A DNA stretch of 64,000 nucleotides, from positions 1 to 64,000 of the forward strand of contig CACWPM010000021.1 in assembly GCA_902762795.1 (NCBI GenBank), read 5' to 3'. The notes beneath the pieces are model-generated. The model saw only the letters and a program-made list of their open reading frames with translations, was not told the DNA's origin and did not search any database. The position numbers were made by a program, and so were the translations under genes. The stretch comes from Fibrobacter succinogenes. Lineage in GTDB: Bacteria > Fibrobacterota > Fibrobacteria > Fibrobacterales > Fibrobacteraceae. Shown in pieces: positions 6,789 to 64,000 of the stretch. Positions within the stretch are counted from its first letter, which is position 1; every line of letters begins with the position of its first letter.

Positions 6789-7017
6789 CAAACCGGAAGT
6801 CGCGGAAATAAGCTTAACTTTTTCCTATTTGTCGCCTTTTGTTTGCTAAATGAACGGCCAACAAAGCGCCCCCTTGTTTTTCTTTTTCGGACATACTATA
6901 TTAAGAATTACCACCCTCGATGGTGTGTTGCCGGGTTCAAAAAATGGTTTTGCCTGCCCCAAGTTTTAATATATCGTTTGCTAAATCATCATATATAAAA
7001 CAAACAAAGGACGTGTT

Positions 7018-7236
7018 ATGGCCAGACCCATCAGAGAAACCCCGATACTCTTTGGCGAAGATGCTCGTCGTTTTTTAGCTAGAATGCAAGAACGTCATCC
7101 GGAATCTCCAGAAGTTCGTGCCCGCCGCTTGCGAAACTACGAACTTATGAAAAGGGCTTACGAAGAGGGTATGCGTGAAAAACGTGCCCGAGAAGCTGCT
7201 AATGGAGGTATCGATCCGTGCTTCAAAAAAGTATAG
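7018..7236 (+). CDS. Small basic protein, possible antitoxin partner of the GNAT gene
   Basis: A 72-residue charged protein (MARPIRETPILFGEDARRF...), mostly predicted helix and rich in Arg, Glu and Lys. Its last 19 bases overlap the start of the following GNAT gene, and the GNAT ribosome binding site (GGAGG at 7204-7208) lies inside its coding region, so the two are translationally coupled. An AAAGGA ribosome binding site precedes the ATG. Small basic proteins in this arrangement often serve as antitoxin to a GNAT toxin. That role is inferred from layout only; I do not recognise a named DNA-binding fold in it. Confidence 0.7.
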   Translation: MARPIRETPILFGEDARRFLARMQERHPESPEVRARRLRNYELMKRAYEEGMREKRAREAANGGIDPCFKKV

Positions 7237-7778
7237 AAAAACCATATATTAAATTTATACGCTTAAATCCAATAGATTCCGTCAAAAACTTTGATTGTGG
7301 TGATAAGGATTTGAATGATTTTATTCTTAATCAATCTGCTGCATTTCAAAAGCATAAAATTGCTGTAAATTACGCTTGTGTTGATGTTGAAGACGCAAGC
7401 AAGGTTTACGCCTATTGCAGTCTTGCTTACGATAAAGTAGCCATGGGTGATTTCAAGGATAAAACGGAGTTTAACCGTTTTCATCGAGAACGTGGATTCC
7501 CGAATGCAAAACGTCTGAAAAGCTACCCGGCGGTAAAGCTGTGTAGGCTGGGGGTTGATATTTCCTTCAGAAAAAAGCAAATCGGGACTGCAATTATCGA
7601 TTATGTCAAGTTGATGTTTGCTTTAAATAATAAAGCGGGTTGTCGCTTTTTGACGGTTGATGCGTATTTGGAGGCGGTTCCCTTTTACGTGAAAAATGAA
7701 TTTCAATTTATGAACGCAGAGGATAATGATCCGCATACACGACTCATGTATTATGACCTGATGGATTTGAGTGCGTAG
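7218..7778 (+). CDS. GNAT family N-acetyltransferase
   Basis: A 186-residue GNAT-fold protein. The N-terminal block FDCGDKDLNDFILNQSAAF is typical of GNATs paired with small antitoxin-like genes. The acetyl-CoA region is seen as KLCRLGVDISFRKKQIGTAIIDYV (beta4-alpha3), although the usual Q/RxxGxG/A is KKQIGT. A VDAYLEAVPFYVKNEFQF block marks the C-terminal strands. The start is GTG at 7218 with GGAGG 10 bases upstream, overlapping the previous gene by 19 bp. It may be a toxin acetylating tRNA or another target, or an ordinary acetyltransferase; sequence alone does not decide. Confidence 0.8.
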   Translation: MLQKSIEKPYIKFIRLNPIDSVKNFDCGDKDLNDFILNQSAAFQKHKIAVNYACVDVEDASKVYAYCSLAYDKVAMGDFKDKTEFNRFHRERGFPNAKRLKSYPAVKLCRLGVDISFRKKQIGTAIIDYVKLMFALNNKAGCRFLTVDAYLEAVPFYVKNEFQFMNAEDNDPHTRLMYYDLMDLSA

Positions 7779-7786
7779 TTCTGTCG

Positions 7787-7831
7787 TACAAAACAGTCAC
7801 CATAGGATCTCAGACATGGATTGCCCAAAAG
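7787..7831 (+). pseudogene. FISUMP domain fragment
   Basis: Right after the GNAT stop codon, 45 bases translate as YKTVTIGSQTWIAQK, nearly the same as YKTVTIGTQTWMAQN in the gene at 6042. No start codon or rest of the domain is present. It abuts the broken topB copy at 7841. Confidence 0.75.
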
Positions 7832-7840
7832 CTGCTGCGG

Positions 7841-8267
7841 TTACCCCTTCTTAATCACTTCTACGGTGAGCTTGTTGAACGCAATCTTCCCGCCTTCGCG
7901 AAGCTCCAGCGCGGCCCTGAATGTCGTATCGTTTTTCTTGAAAGGTTCAAGGATTGGCGTGGATTTGTTCTTGAGGAGCGTTTCGACTTCTTCGTCTTTA
8001 AATTCTCACTGGAAAAACGTCTTGGGAATCCCGTAATTGCAGGCGGGGTTCATGCACACGTATGCCGCAAGTGTTTGCTCTTCGCCGTTTGGCGTTTGCG
8101 TGGTCGTGCCGCTACGGAATCGCAGCTGGTCGCCGCAGCAAGGGCAGGGGAGGTCTCTATGGACGAATTCAAAGCTTGTGCGACCGTCTTCACCGAGCTT
8201 TAGGTAGGCATCGAATTCTGTTCCTTTCTTGCTCTTGAATCCGGTTAATAGTTCAGTTTTGCCACCA
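7841..8267 (-). pseudogene. Duplicated 3' end of topB (nonfunctional)
   Basis: About 427 bp match the last part of topB (9589-10015), including the same C-terminal VEVIKKG followed by a stop codon (TAA at 7841-7843). A nonsense codon has arisen at 8006-8008, where intact topB has Arg: the intact protein reads FFKREFSDEEVETLL and the copy FFQ*EFKDEEVETLL. The piece lacks the enzyme's catalytic part and a start. The open part, 8006-8272, could still be read as 88 residues with four zinc-ribbon cysteines, but there is no sign that it is used. It forms a direct repeat with topB around the rpn gene. Confidence 0.85.
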
Positions 8268-8400
8268 TCCACGTTTGCGAGCCGATTTTCACCGTCTTGT
8301 ACTTTTGCCCATCGCGTTTATCAATCAAGGTTCCTTGTGTTGCTGCCATATCCAAAGATGCCATAAGCAAAAGAGCCGGTATCAAAAGTGAAAATTTCAT
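8245..8400 (-). pseudogene. Truncated FISUMP gene (N-terminal 51 codons)
   Basis: On the minus strand a signal peptide (MKFSLLIPALLLMASLDMAA) is followed by the start of a FISUMP domain (GTLIDKRDGQKYKTVKIGSQ, then TWMVAKLNY) and a TAA at 8245. The last codons coincide with the joint to the topB fragment, so the rest of the domain has been replaced. It starts at 8400, with about 220 bp of AT-rich DNA between it and the rpn gene in which I see nothing else. Confidence 0.7.
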
Positions 8401-8623
8401 ATGAAGTCCACTTGATAGAAAAGTTTATTTTGCCACTAGCGTTCATTAAAAAATACAAAAGAAGCCAAGGAAATTTAAAAGAAAAATATGCTTTGTATGG
8501 CTTGCCGTTAGCCTTTAATCCTTAAATCTTTGACGCATCATTTTTTTTACAAAAATTTTTCAGGACAAATCCAGCAAAAATGCGTGTCTATAAAACAGAA
8601 GCCAAACTGTTTCAAGGATGCGT

Positions 8624-9586
8624 ATGACAAAAAATTTTGAAAAAATAAAGCAAGAGACTGAACTTCGTAAGCAGATGTTTTACGATCCGACACTAGACCC
8701 CGTTTTCAAGAAGATATTTGACAATAAATCGACACTCATCAATTTTCTAAACGCATTTTTGCGATTGGAAAATGATCGTAGGATTACGGAAGTCGAGCAA
8801 ATCCGTAGAACCGTGAAATTGAAAAAGGCTGGGGGTGGCGACTCGATTGGTCGTTTCGATATTCATGCCCGCACAGCGGACGGACGATTCGTCAACATAG
8901 AGATGCAACGCATTGACCACGATGATTTTTTGGATCGCATTGAACTGTACAGTTCACTTTTGACGATTAACGCAAAAATCACCATGGACAGTGAGGTTTC
9001 GAAAGACCAGTTCAAGGAACATCCTTACCTGATGCCTACGGTCTATTCTATATGGCTGTGTAATTTCAAAGTCCCTTTTTGCAATGGATATCGTGAGGAT
9101 TTGGGGTTGTTTCGCTACTCCGATTTGGGTGACAAACGGGCCCTTCCCATCTATGGGAAAAAGAGGTATATTGTTATTGATATAACAAGATTTGTTCCCG
9201 CCAAGGGTAATGAACTAGAACAACAGTGGCTCGAAATATTCAAGAATGCTCCGAACGCAAGACGTATCCCTGCAAACGTTGCGGACGAAATTAGGGATGT
9301 CTATGAACGGCTGTTGGTGAAAAATTCGACCAGGGACTTTTTAAAGAAGGTGGTTGGCAGTATGACTGACAAAAGAGAATATTGGGCCGGACTTGCAACT
9401 GCCCGTCGCAGGGCCGAGGCTGAAGGTTTTGCTAAAGGTGAGGCAAAAGGCTTGGCGAAAGGTTTGGCGAAAGGCTTGGCAAAAGGCTTGGCAAAAGGTG
9501 AAAAGAAAAGCGCCAAGATGGCAAAGTTCCTTCAGAAAAACGGAGTGTCGCCAAAGTTATTGGCTGCGGCTCTCGCATTGAAATAA
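8624..9586 (+). CDS. Rpn family recombination-promoting nuclease / putative transposase (PD-(D/E)XK)
   Basis: Members of this family are PD-(D/E)XK nucleases linked to RecA-independent recombination. The N-terminus is typical (DPTLDPVFKKIFDNKSTLIN), and the nuclease core shows Asp79 (GRFDIHA) and Glu93-x-Gln95 (NIEMQ), the D...ExQ signature. The tail has a run of four-residue repeats (GLAKGLAKG...), common in this family. The ATG at 8624 is preferred over 8618 because AAGGA lies 6 bp before it. About 320 residues. It is bracketed by direct repeats of the topB 3' end (7841-8267 and 9589-10015) and converges on topB with a 2-bp gap. Confidence 0.88.
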   Translation: MTKNFEKIKQETELRKQMFYDPTLDPVFKKIFDNKSTLINFLNAFLRLENDRRITEVEQIRRTVKLKKAGGGDSIGRFDIHARTADGRFVNIEMQRIDHDDFLDRIELYSSLLTINAKITMDSEVSKDQFKEHPYLMPTVYSIWLCNFKVPFCNGYREDLGLFRYSDLGDKRALPIYGKKRYIVIDITRFVPAKGNELEQQWLEIFKNAPNARRIPANVADEIRDVYERLLVKNSTRDFLKKVVGSMTDKREYWAGLATARRRAEAEGFAKGEAKGLAKGLAKGLAKGLAKGEKKSAKMAKFLQKNGVSPKLLAAALALK

Positions 9587-59700: not shown

Positions 59701-60196
59701 TGATATTTACTTGATATCGCCTTTTATCGTTTGTGGCTGCGTTTGTACCTGCGATAATGGTCCAGTCAGAGGAGGTCTTGCGGCCAGAAGATTTAAGCGT
59801 GCCAGTTATGGCTGGGGTAAGGGAGGCTCCATTTACATCTACGACTTCGAAGGTTGTCGCGTTTCCGATGAAATAGAATTGACGTTCCTTGTCGCTTTCC
59901 AGATAGCCGGCCTGGTTCACGCGAATAGGCGACATGCGGTAGTTGATCGCGTCCAAGTACGCCTGGTCCAACGTATCGACGATATATGCGTTCGGTGCAT
60001 AAAAAGGAGTCGTCTTGACCGATGGCACAGTGTTCTTTTTCTGGGTGACCGAAGCGTCATAATGATCAAAAACGGTCGTATCCCACGTTAAGGGGAATGT
60101 TGGCCTAATCAAATCATAAGGAGTCGATTGTTCTTGCTGTGCGAACCCCAATGTTGTTACTGCGCACAACGCTAACAGATACTTCTTGATACTCAC
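53735..60196 (-). CDS. Secreted GH9 cellulase, multidomain (2153 residues)
   Basis: The paralogue of the neighbouring GH9 gene. The start is GTG at 60196 with AAGGAG upstream (signal peptide SIKKYLLALCAVTTLGFAQ); an in-frame ATG 39 bases upstream lies inside a terminator stem. Domains: N-terminal Ig-like (SPIRVNQAGYLESDKERQFY), GH9 catalytic with Asp268 and Asp271 (GGYYDCGDHLKES), HPHHRASNPEG and Glu753 (KSEVCIDAS), two fibronectin type III domains (TPGTTYYFYVTG, LKEKTTYYFMVES), a carbohydrate-binding-like region, and many Ig-like domains. The C-terminus has IGTGAYIAKFDF and ends TLGFKRKK. It is the first gene of the minus-strand cluster. Confidence 0.9.
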   Translation of the reverse strand: MSIKKYLLALCAVTTLGFAQQEQSTPYDLIRPTFPLTWDTTVFDHYDASVTQKKNTVPSVKTTPFYAPNAYIVDTLDQAYLDAINYRMSPIRVNQAGYLESDKERQFYFIGNATTFEVVDVNGASLTPAITGTLKSSGRKTSSDWTIIAGTNAATNDKRRYQVNITGQSGTIMIGNIPQGVPTDTRLRIKIGKDISSTFIVSEQVYTMVKDAAIKFYGINRSGYGDSWFHPASHTKDGAGGVAVGDGIEIRNHYDASLAGTLQGGYYDCGDHLKESQTQMYAFMVAALMAATNPDVDVDHYQFNHGKGGYDGIPDMLREAKHGADFVLRAFVRAKGVIDDMALSIGTKDSDHGWWERPEYQDNLPVNGTPSATDRGGPASRMVRLGEIGANVGGETVTGLAILGKLYAEFDQDFADSCLMVAEKMYDMIKALAQGKKTYDGGKTIKNNKAIGWESKAYQGNNEFIDDIALASVALLYATRKEKYADDMIRTRNLVSAASGAPAQEYMDNCAGCFEGGWFVTNDKGFLKNVKSTSWANSYTFALYALYKLILADKEQAIKNYGLTEQEWLNAVEDCVANLIYNVSDMSEGSGNASIELPMGGIIWKPNIVKYDADWYSMASPSGEWIYNRYQAGNIFDVMAYVDVAKSIEAQGISLPHMGTPNWKTDEMYRLAINQMNYMLGVNPWDISFIYGIGDKNDAHPHHRASNPEGRNVAGARYPYKVPAGAFLGGVKPGLNNSWVPDFMSWEDFHKSEVCIDASAIFLGTVSLVAHKFDKTVAPKISVEIRHRSADSAIVRVNLTQRGTSVIHYGTKEGEYTLEATNGNKDIQHDIVLRDLTPGTTYYFYVTGANAYKPENITTKYLVDSTQTPFSFTTRSNVESAEIVNVTVCNVSSDSAEIMWYTPNGEYESKIYWDTQPHATASEYAFNSGAGNADISGIPTQFHYVKIGGLKEKTTYYFMVESNGAQTNVDDNSQPLKFTTPVTWYDFSVKTYQYPWQGDMAMLNINIFNNEGRAFDSLTIRLYMRGTDEIENDIGMGTDICNSYDEAGFNGACPESTIDELARLLRDAHPVKIEDTYDAATGTWQWYFPLHLGSTVIRSSSRLRFDVRFDHRSPFPPYKDLMNEAPKKKLYCRSGNKWYAPSNETPGAPTLAENPGDWSWMPHSRANGEELDYPGMPCISKDEGDIDFEVAPVNPYVSVYRKDQFIWGYSPSKKEMETKKANYKINMVLEAPFDGPNGSHIDIDQNSSTVHVKGTATVSEGGYITKIWANGVKISGQGFVEGLNKWLLNADGTEIIAKYDIPTDKWELDLPVKMSLGSKKVDITVFAGPNPTCDECMANGGCAFENRTYYVNFSKGDATESQLVLKDSQGKPIISPANPEGTVFYIDLTDKDKVKANTQTLDVKIINNKKNDALNVTLTADPANPGHFVGGPITAVNHSKETRNPTSEISFYAGDTIQVVYTDPDDEDDVSKQTFFAESKVPSPQTVLAIDTDCDNKADQLKITFTNKLADGYTLDSIRYFIESMTDTVKLPLSAASFSDKNEVLIPISAAILQTNASPSGKITTYVADRGIPNAETVKITDGILPSLESVSILEKADDDISGYDTVMIAFSEPVILSSLTEWPLNVSGATGIPTVVGNATTTNNGKSWQYIITGNTNNSLVPVGAQAGARTSGGFSITDQSFNPIDVLGCKPTVPITLISRPVPVYHAEMIDLQGDGIPDKVYIMFERKLKTKDMFDSIVTVWGDPGITRSFITTADTTGGIIKPRENYWTIRDSSSAPFKVMQADSTTKDSVNTYSIIEINIPASHAYPYGSTSGEKNGNGTVSPLKGAANGFFESSYTLYDNCAPVIASARMINGLLSVNMSEPLSLIENGKYIQRERDEYIPPEKPQGSEATYLFSYNEKDNVIHAGDRIRLVPDILGAAYSDQSNNKPTVNNPYIRITGDDKVHFRVTLTKPVATPKDGAYIGRPEVTKDHAFITSAVAGGKNNFINGEGTLIGEADTVAYFGSGPNFEIEVTMPSANFTTRDGQPMYDYHLKIAMDLYDNLGQYINTYKIDIPKEKFATIRNLVESGTLKLNLEWTAKDNEAPVAKKGNKIGTGAYIAKFDFTAESFCATTFDATSNDYKATCSEVGAKVEKTTDNKTKTLGFKRKK

Positions 60197-61408: not shown

Positions 61409-61651
61409 CTTTCAATCCTCTTAGAAAATAAAGTTTCTGTTTTTCGCTATCAAAAATAATACTTATTATGTGATTTTGGTCATAAGAAAAGTAAAAAAGT
61501 TAAAAAAAATTGTGAAAAAAGGAGATGAACGGTCGGTTTTGGGGGACAAGTCGCAGATTTAACTAGTGGCTCTGGATCCCCACGCTTTGGTCGAGAAGGA
61601 CGGTTCCGGGATGGCAAGGTTGAGGAAGACTCTCACTAACCACTGTTCACC

Positions 61652-61694
61652 AACCACAGGATTAGACGAAAGAACGGACCTTCTGCCCTACAGA
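61652..61694. repeat. 43-bp direct repeat, first copy
   Basis: AACCACAGGATTAGACG, AAAGAACGGACC and TTCTGCCCTACAGA; the second copy (61846-61888) differs at one base. Both carry the TAGACGAAAG word. Confidence 0.75.
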
Positions 61695-61737: not shown

Positions 61738-61850
61738 AGGTCTTAGGTAGTAGGTTGTAGGTCTTAGGTGAGTTAGGCGGCATAGCCGCGTGTGTATGAA
61801 CCTAAAGCCAAACTCCTGTTGCCTAATCCCTAACCACTAATCACTAACCA
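61738..61850. repeat. Family E imperfect long hairpin, copy E6
   Basis: Left arm GGTCTTAGGTAGTAGG, TTGTAGGTCTTAGG; centre GGCGGCATAGCCGCG; right arm CCTAAAGCCAAACTCC, TTGCCTAATCCC. It lies between divergent genes (Ala-rich protein and fumarase), framed by the 43-bp direct repeats. Confidence 0.65.
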
Positions 61851-61888
61851 CAGGATTAGACGAAAGAACGGACCTTCGGCCCTACAGA
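61846..61888. repeat. 43-bp direct repeat, second copy
   Basis: Second copy of the 61652-61694 repeat. The two copies flank family E copy E6, as if the pair had been formed by duplication on insertion or by recombination. Confidence 0.75.
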
Positions 61889-61976: not shown

Positions 61977-63614
61977 ATGGCATTCAAATACGAAGCTACC
62001 GTCCAGCACGGTGAAGATACAACCGAATACGTAAGTCTCGGCAAGGAAGGCGTTTCCGTCGCCGAATTCGAAGGCAAGAAGATTCTGAAGGTCGCCCCCG
62101 AGGCGCTCACCAAGATCGCCCAGGCCGCATTCGAAGAAGTCGAATTCTGCCTGCGCCCGGCCCACACGGCCAAGGTCGCCAAGATTCTCCAGGACCCGGA
62201 AGCTTCGGACAACGACAAGTTTGTCGCCCTCACCATGCTCAAGAACGCATGCGTTGCCGCGAAGGGCATTCTCCCGTTCTGCCAGGACACCGGTACGGCT
62301 ATCTGCGTTGCCCACAAGGGCCAGCAGGTGTGGACCGGCTTTGACGATGCCGAAGCGATTTCCGAAGGTATCTACAACGCTTACACCACCAAGAACCTTC
62401 GCTACAGCCAGATTGCACCCTTGACGATGTACGAAGAAAAGAACACGGCTTGCAACCTCCCGGCCCAGATCGACATCCACGCCGAAGAAGGCGCCGAAAT
62501 GAAGTTCCTCTTTGTGGCCAAGGGAGGTGGCTCTGCCAACAAGACTTACTACTGGCCGATGACCAAGGCGCTCCTCAACCCGAAGTCCTTGGAAAAGTTC
62601 CTCGCCGAAAAGGTGAAGACGCTCGGTACTGCGGCCTGCCCTCCGTACCACCTCGCGATTGTGATTGGCGGTACCTCTGCCGAAATGAACACTCACATGG
62701 TGAAGCTCGCTAGCTGCGGTTACCTCGACGATATTCCGACAAGCGGTTCCGAAGGCGGCCGTATTTTCCGCGACCTCGAAATGGAAGAAAAGGTTTTGCA
62801 CATTTGCCAGAAGACAGGCATTGGCGCCCAGTTCGGCGGCAAGTACCTGGTGCATGATGTGCGCGTAATCCGCGCTCCGCGTCATGCCGCAAGCTGCCCG
62901 GTTTCTATCGGCGTTTCTTGCTCTGCAGACCGCAACATCAAGGCGAAGATTGACGAAAACGGCCTCTGGCTCGAAAAGATGGAACACCATCCGGAAAACT
63001 ACATCCCGGCTGGCAACGCCGTGAACCTCGCTCCGGCAGTCGAAATCGACCTCGACCGTCCGATGAAGGAAGTGCTCGCCGACCTCACCAAGTATCCGGT
63101 GAAGACGCGCCTCAGCCTCAAGGGCACGATGATTGTGGCCCGCGACATGGCCCACGCGAAGATTGCCGAAATCTTCGACAAGCAGGAACGCGGCGAAGAA
63201 CTCACCGACGAAGAAAAGACCGTGCTCAAGGTCGTGTCTGACCACCCGATCTACTACGCCGGCCCGGCCAAGACTCCGGCAGGCATGCCCACCGGTAGCT
63301 TCGGCCCGACGACGGCTAACCGCATGGACCCGTACGTGATGCGCTTCCAGAGCAAGGGTGCTTCGATGATCATGGTCGCTAAGGGCAACCGCTCTCAGGA
63401 CGTGACCGACGCTTGCAAGAAGTACGGTGGATTCTTCCTCGGCTCTATCGGCGGTCCGGCAGCCATCCTCGCTGAACAGAACATTCTGTCCAATGACATC
63501 GTGGCCTTCCCGGAACTCGGCATGGAAGCCATCCGCAAAATCACCATCAAGGACTTCCCGGCATTCATCCTCGTGGATGACAAGGGCAACAACTTCTTTG
63601 AAGGCCTGATTTAA
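61977..63614 (+). CDS. fumA: Fumarate hydratase class I (4Fe-4S)
   Basis: Interconverts fumarate and malate. Fibrobacter makes succinate as its main product through the reductive branch, so this step is central to its fermentation. The 545 residues cover both class I domains: [13 protein letters not shown] with cluster-ligand candidate Cys102, the iron-sulfur blocks [11 protein letters not shown] and [27 protein letters not shown], and the C-terminal swivel domain [15 protein letters not shown]. An AAGGA ribosome binding site precedes ATG at 61977. Codon use is strongly biased, implying high expression. The 5' region consists of repeat sequence, and a 99-nt tandem array begins 16 bp after the stop. 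The choice of symbol is by class, not proven orthology. Confidence 0.95.
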
Positions 63615-63630
63615 AGGATGTTGCCCTTGC

Positions 63631-64000
63631 GCCAAGCGGATGCGGCTCGTTTTAACGAGCCGTAGAAGCGCGGAGTATTTGACTTTGTACATTCTTTATT
63701 GTAGTAGTCAAATACGGAGTCTCTCAATCGCCAAGCGGATGCGGCTCGTTTTGACGAGCCGTAGAAGCGCGGAGTATTTGGCGTCGTAAGTTCTTAGCTG
63801 CGGTAGCCAAATACGGAGTCTCTCAATCGCCAAGCGGATGCGGCTCGTTTTGACGAGCCGTAGAAGCGCGGAGTATTTGGCATCGAAAGTTTTTTACTGC
63901 ATTAGCCAAATACGGAGTCTCTCAATCGCCAAGCGGATGCGGCTCGTATTAACGAGCCATAGAAGCGCGGAGTATTTGGCGTCGTAAGTTCTTTAATGCG
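63631..64000. repeat. 99-nt tandem repeat array with two conserved hairpins (continues past window)
   Basis: Units start at 63631, 63730, 63829 and 63928, each exactly 99 nt; the fourth is cut by the window end. Hairpin A is CGGCTCGT-loop-ACGAGCCG. Hairpin B is GTATTTGGC...GCCAAATAC with a 23-nt variable loop. In unit 1 the stem reads GTATTTGACT...AGTCAAATAC, so three bases changed on both sides with pairing kept. No frame runs through the array without stops. Confidence 0.85.

Follow-up and report, generated by a model that had tools for sequence, protein, structure and literature searches.

What kind of element forms the 99-nt tandem array that follows the fumarase gene of Fibrobacter succinogenes? 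The array lies at the right edge of the window, the 64,000-nt stretch analyzed here (contig CACWPM010000021.1, positions 1 to 64,000, forward strand). The initial annotation of this DNA likened it to small structured RNAs or to structured recombination sites.

The array behind the fumarase gene

The fumarase ORF matched the NCBIfam class I fumarate hydratase model at 1.2e-240, under that model's curated cut-off, and exceeded the cut-offs of TIGR00723 and TIGR00722. Tandem Repeats Finder placed the array at 63,630 to 63,999 (period, 99; 90% matches; no indels; score, 600), starting 15 nt past the fumarase stop codon. Four units had been counted in the initial annotation; upon extension of the contig (L003, contig positions 60,001 to 69,135), the 99-nt period held but the count rose to five (63,630 to 64,124 in window numbering), with the fifth unit just beyond the window edge and the array stopping after it. 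The extension also revealed that the array is flanked by the fumarase 3' end twice (T-left and T-right below), which was invisible from within the window. The features at this site are as follows.

61,977 to 63,614, + strand: class I fumarate hydratase gene, host gene of the array site (ORF of 545 aa; NCBIfam)
63,581 to 63,591, + strand: X, CAAGGGCAACA, overlapping the start of T-left; perfect inverted partner at 63,619 to 63,629
63,586 to 63,613, + strand: T-left, the last codons of the fumarase gene (direct repeat family D16)
63,619 to 63,629, + strand: X', TGTTGCCCTTG, reverse complement of X, directly before unit 1
63,630 to 63,728, + strand: unit 1, 99 nt including a TCAAT linker (covariance models R1 and R2)
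63,642 to 63,663, + strand: hairpin A of unit 1
63,675 to 63,715, + strand: hairpin B of unit 1
63,729 to 63,827, + strand: unit 2, with a B hairpin identical to that of unit 3 of genome G019
63,828 to 63,926, + strand: unit 3 (covariance models)
63,927 to 64,000, + strand: unit 4, cut by the window end and running on to 64,025
64,026 to 64,124: unit 5, past the window end
64,126 to 64,153 of the contig: T-right, second copy of the fumarase end, downstream of the array and outside the window

Unit 4 shares its B hairpin, letter for letter, with the lone unit present in each of three other genomes (G003, G010, and G071). Judging from these hairpins, the units of the array are not plain copies of one another, those of units 2 and 4 matching units in other genomes.

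Across 30 Fibrobacter loci, the sequence and genes that follow fumarase vary greatly between species, and for this reason the fumarase gene end looks like an insertion hotspot. Downstream of the array, we observed two full tandem paralogues of 639 to 640 aa (L003:4756-6675 and 6854-8776) and the start of a third at 9096. These have signal-peptide-like starts and, by eye, a subtilisin-like motif; the first had no match in NCBIfam. Before the fumarase gene lies a 62-nt direct repeat (..CACAGGATTAGACGAAAGAACGGACCTTC..) at window positions 61,633 to 61,694 and 61,827 to 61,888, and its GACGAAAGAACGGACC text is also present close to other Fibrobacter gene ends.

A two-hairpin family nearly restricted to Fibrobacter

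Each unit carries two hairpins: A, which is closed internally, and B, whose loop varies. Compared with dinucleotide-shuffled sequence, all three units lying wholly inside the window gave better folds (z, -4.7, -3.4, and -3.7), and the fumarase 3' end together with the first unit, folded with DNA parameters, reached a z of -7.3 against shuffles. At the inner end of stem B, units 1 and 5 carry TTTGACT/AGTCAAA and units 2 to 4 carry TTTGGC/GCCAAA. This is the compensatory change described in the initial annotation, and many further pair changes now back it. When 20 units drawn from several sites were aligned, both sides had changed in 9 of 22 pairs, 99.5% of cells remained paired, and none of 500 shuffles was as good. 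Covariation was stronger in a second subtype (19 of 22 pairs, 156 cells), again with no equal among 500 shuffles. The two hairpins per unit proposed from the first reading are borne out by both the fold test and the covariation, which includes G-U pairs. It is important to note that covariation in a palindrome, and likewise of X with X', can also arise by template switching during replication.

When the array was used as a query, related sequence turned up in 18 of 61 genomes, each belonging to the same genus. A covariance model built from the 20 aligned units (R1) had hits at E up to 0.01 in 70 of 80 Fibrobacter genomes; among 168 genomes of the phylum, it had hits in one genome outside Fibrobacter. 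Unit ends are conserved as GTGAGC / GAGAG / CGGTC or CCAAGCG / GCGGAG / CGGAGTC, and subtype 2 has the layout GTGAGC - A - GCGAGAG - B - CGGTC. A second model, R2, was built from subtype 2 without any subtype-1 unit and nevertheless recovered the window array (E down to 6e-10); subtypes 1 and 2 thus form one superfamily. For instance, unit 1 scored 106.9 bits with R1 and 39.9 bits (E, 2.2e-9) with the independently built R2. In 15 well-assembled Fibrobacter genomes, R2 found 6 to 67 copies per genome (44 in the window's own genome), and it found none in G165, of the sister genus. The subtype-2 core pattern occurred in 98 stretches among 84,980 GTDB species genomes; among the 80 matches listed, all were from Fibrobacter. 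The covariance model and genome search suggested in the initial annotation therefore yielded further copies genus-wide, with covariation that grew as more units were aligned.

An Rfam search of the array gave no match, in agreement with the earlier remark that no known family has this layout. For nine related loci, Rfam returned only tRNA, tmRNA, and hits below the gathering score. In the literature searched on Fibrobacter repeats, RNAs, and gene-end elements, we found no description of the family. By these comparisons, the units are a family of ∼95 nt with two hairpins, nearly restricted to Fibrobacter.

Several simpler origins were considered and dropped. Slippage alone was ruled out, as the same core is present at dozens of unrelated sites. 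A phage or plasmid origin was set aside: the array has no match in phage or plasmid records, and the subtype-2 core pattern was absent from viral contigs. A DNA uptake sequence was ruled out because copies are too few (1 to 10 exact cores per Fibrobacter genome).

A second array was observed in the window's own genome (contig C8, L287:9763-10385). It consists of six tandem subtype-2 units of at least three kinds and terminates where an opposite-strand, malate-dehydrogenase-like gene has its stop codon. Some units also carry a nested insertion (CCTTTGGCCACTT..GCGC..GGTGG) at one recurring place in P1 (L287:10141-10292, L274:7337-7500, L017, and L021), perhaps a second small element targeting the first.

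Gene ends, duplicated copies, and complementary arms

Upon reading the flanks of about 80 loci, we found the units at gene 3' ends, some pointing along the gene and others against it. Family-checked genes with units include class I fumarase, trpS, pheS, typA, groEL, EF-G (fusA), adk, and a murC-like gene; PFOR, dppC, leuB, rplT, and malate dehydrogenase were assigned by reading C termini alone. The RNA genes with units at the 3' end are tRNA-Arg and tmRNA. In 62 unit blocks, drawn from pattern-selected 8-kb loci with gene starts placed imprecisely by longest ORF, the nearest gene end was a 3' end in 37, versus 560 of 1,380 random intergenic windows (P = 0.0035). In the same sample, convergent outnumbered divergent settings 22 to 11, versus 275 to 420 in random windows (P = 0.003). 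The bias toward gene 3' ends is real, yet not absolute. Unit strand showed no bias relative to GC skew (13 of 27), a bias that some single-strand mechanisms would produce. At L017, L019, and L022, we also noted PFOR-like genes whose 3' part contains a unit and other hairpin insertions; these are likely broken or partial copies.

The gene end is often present twice. At fumarase, 13 of the distinct arrangements listed have the last ten codons of the gene again after the unit or units; where a genome lacks the fumarase unit, the end is present once, and the sequence behind it resembles that after the second copy, as expected of empty sites. The two fumarase copies differ by 44 synonymous codons and 1 nonsynonymous codon, a count that includes one synonymous change from L080, which has no unit of this family. 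By codon position, 42 changes fall on the third, 5 on the first, and none on the second (P ∼3e-15 versus a uniform expectation). In a copy no longer in use, changes should accumulate evenly over the three codon positions; hence, both copies were translated in the recent past. At dppC, there were 48 synonymous and 5 nonsynonymous differences; in several genomes the second dppC copy also includes where the following gene starts and is therefore not free to drift. PFOR copies had 15 synonymous and 21 nonsynonymous differences, 13 of the latter in one decayed copy.

A duplicated 3' end with a restored gene was found at fumarase, dppC, PFOR, tRNA-Arg, and other genes, and an automatic direct-repeat test detected duplicated ends at 9 of 66 site clusters. 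Duplication is thus common at the best-sampled sites, and elsewhere a second copy is often missing, through decay or another origin of the unit. At the fumarase end of two other genomes (L038 in G079 and L044 in G034), a different hairpin (ACTAAGCACTAAAGTGCTAAGTGCT) lies between two gene-end copies of ∼59 nt, which show synonymous differences only.

On the gene strand, the unit is directly preceded by X', which is the complement of X, where the duplicated end begins, and, at fumarase, pairs with X in the predicted single-strand fold. In the best members, exact X/X' runs reach 8 to 15 nt at fumarase, PFOR, dppC, tRNA-Arg, and L144, against a 99% value of 8 when unrelated sites were swapped; the remaining sites were not above this null. 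At dppC, X' tracks the coding variants: GAT occurs with GGATCCAT and GAC with GGTCCAT. The 21 such cases in the table used lack phylogenetic independence, and L117 has a variant arm, GGATTCAT, at its second unit. PFOR shows matched variant pairs as well (GTGGACGCCCGC/GCGGGCGTCCAC, GTGGATGCACGC/GCGTGCATCCAC, and GTGGATGCCCGC/GCGGGCATCCAC). Template switching could likewise keep such arms matched.

These arms bear directly on whether the unit acts as RNA, either as a cis-acting 3'-UTR element or as a small-RNA array that stabilizes or regulates the upstream gene, with X and X' forming a switch over the stop codon. Strong covariation that includes G-U pairs agrees with this idea, as do the fold of the fumarase end with its first unit, far better than that of shuffles under DNA parameters, and the fact that no terminator was seen between the fumarase gene and the unit. 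At tRNA-Arg, however, the gene end and X' are separated by a terminator-like hairpin, which speaks against pairing of X with X' within one transcript. Similar sequence was seen by eye between target and X' at PFOR, where the terminator scan did not list one. Units also occur antisense to the gene (leuB and pheS), the duplicated gene ends would be left unexplained, and Rfam holds no match. Given the two orientations and the hairpin at tRNA-Arg, the RNA reading fits worse, and we regard it as unlikely. Of the two possibilities raised in the initial annotation, structured recombination sites are therefore favored, and the duplicated ends also point this way.

Units and gene ends also form longer series and are shared between species in a larger block. 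Tandem T-X'-unit-T-X'-unit-T arrangements were found at dppC and fumarase. In four species, a block of ∼2.06 kb is near-identical while the fumarase body is 94 to 96% identical; it comprises X'-unit, the second gene end, and a cargo gene that reads as a secreted protein, and it begins no more than 25 nt from the unit. By its sequence identity, the block shows a recent exchange with an edge at the unit, although the sharp left edge rests on G003 versus the other three and may reflect one event.

Such an exchange would also suit an immobile unit, an old hairpin at a few gene ends that spread between species by homologous recombination, with X' and the covariation produced by template switching. 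Consistent with this, ComEC was found in all 15 genomes tested, and a T-right refreshed by recombination would yield the synonymous pattern. Nevertheless, dozens of genes with no relation to one another carry the same unit, unlike units stand together in tandem arrays, and homologous recombination does not create new sites; we consider this explanation quite improbable.

Candidate movers and comparison with known systems

RAYT, TnpB, reverse transcriptase, and integron integrase were dropped as movers, since they are missing from unit-rich genomes. The Y1 transposase (PF01797) was found in 5 of 16 genomes and was absent from the other 11, including G033 (67 units) and G030 (42 units). TnpB (PF07282), the expected partner if the units were TnpB/IS605 omega-RNAs, was found in 0 of 15 genomes and reverse transcriptase in 2 of 15. 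None of 16 genomes had an integron integrase (TIGR02249) over the curated cut-off, lower hits being tyrosine recombinases of other kinds. A crude motif scan of ORFs up to 3 kb from units found no tyrosine or serine recombinase, with many loci offering less than 3 kb per side. XerC/XerD-like recombinases were found throughout the tested genomes and, with ComEC, make host machinery the default candidate, which is not itself a finding.

Another possibility is that a transposase, of the IS200/IS605 (RAYT) type or otherwise, moves the units as REP- or MITE-like DNA transposons. Like the GTAG and CGTC REPs, they are short palindromic interspersed repeats, clustered and largely intergenic (PMC3733652). 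REP/BIME elements with RAYT likewise form tandem clusters, often downstream of genes. Fibrobacter units, in contrast, lack a terminal GTAG/CGTC tag, and the distribution of Y1 transposase and TnpB given above leaves several unit-rich genomes without a RAYT. The target-specific X' arm and duplicated coding ends are foreign to REPs. This origin therefore seems very improbable.

Overall, we lean toward the view that the units are non-autonomous mobile DNA cassettes of Fibrobacter, which would enter conserved genes at the 3' end and keep the host gene intact. The duplicated ends, their synonymous divergence at fumarase, the empty sites, the matched X', and the bias toward gene 3' ends all argue for cassettes, as do the near restriction to one genus, the covarying structure, the tandem arrays of unlike units, and the 2.06-kb block. 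Counting against them are the small share of site clusters with duplicated ends, the nonsynonymous changes at PFOR, and template switching. At the best-sampled sites, the layout on the gene strand is gene, X, rest of the 3' end with the stop codon, X', structured unit, X, and the 3' end again, and it would result from insertion of a cassette bringing its own copy of the gene end. The unit, as a single strand of P1, hairpin A, and hairpin B with X' complementary to X, would travel as folded DNA. Because no dedicated enzyme was found, joining is attributed to host machinery, such as RecA-type recombination or XerC/XerD, possibly after DNA uptake. The fumarase array would then be five such units built up at one site. 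A narrower proposal, which we put forward only tentatively, is a new kind of mobile DNA, an enzyme-less structured cassette with a recoded gene-end copy and a short complementary address arm, in which one folded core would serve many gene ends across a genus and the gene would always be restored.

If the cassette interpretation is correct, ∼95 nt of folded DNA would suffice to colonize gene ends across a genus, with no transposase of its own and no damage to host genes. It would provide a testable case of target-adapted insertion and of gene ends that are recoded while the host protein stays intact. Whichever interpretation holds, Rfam lacks a structured element that reaches tens of copies per genome.

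Among known systems, the units most closely resemble integron cassettes and those integrative elements that rebuild the gene 3' end they enter; they are set apart from both, as neither an integron integrase nor an integrase of their own was found. Group IIC introns, diversity-generating retroelements (DGRs), and retrons also target gene ends or terminators or use inverted-repeat arms, but reverse transcriptase is present in just the two Fibrobacter genomes noted above. Integron cassettes with attC have a hairpin-forming site at gene 3' ends and build tandem arrays of unlike units, as the Fibrobacter units do. The latter, in contrast, occupy scattered chromosomal genes in genomes without an integron integrase over the cut-off, and no attC core was noticed in them by eye. 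With integrative elements (phages, ICEs, and IMEs, whose attB sites lie at the 3' ends of tRNA, tmRNA, and protein genes), the Fibrobacter units share the type of target and the duplicated end, one copy being a synonymous version of the other. They differ in being only ∼95 nt plus the end copy, with no integrase found within reach, and in having many unrelated targets per genome and an arm complementary to the target.
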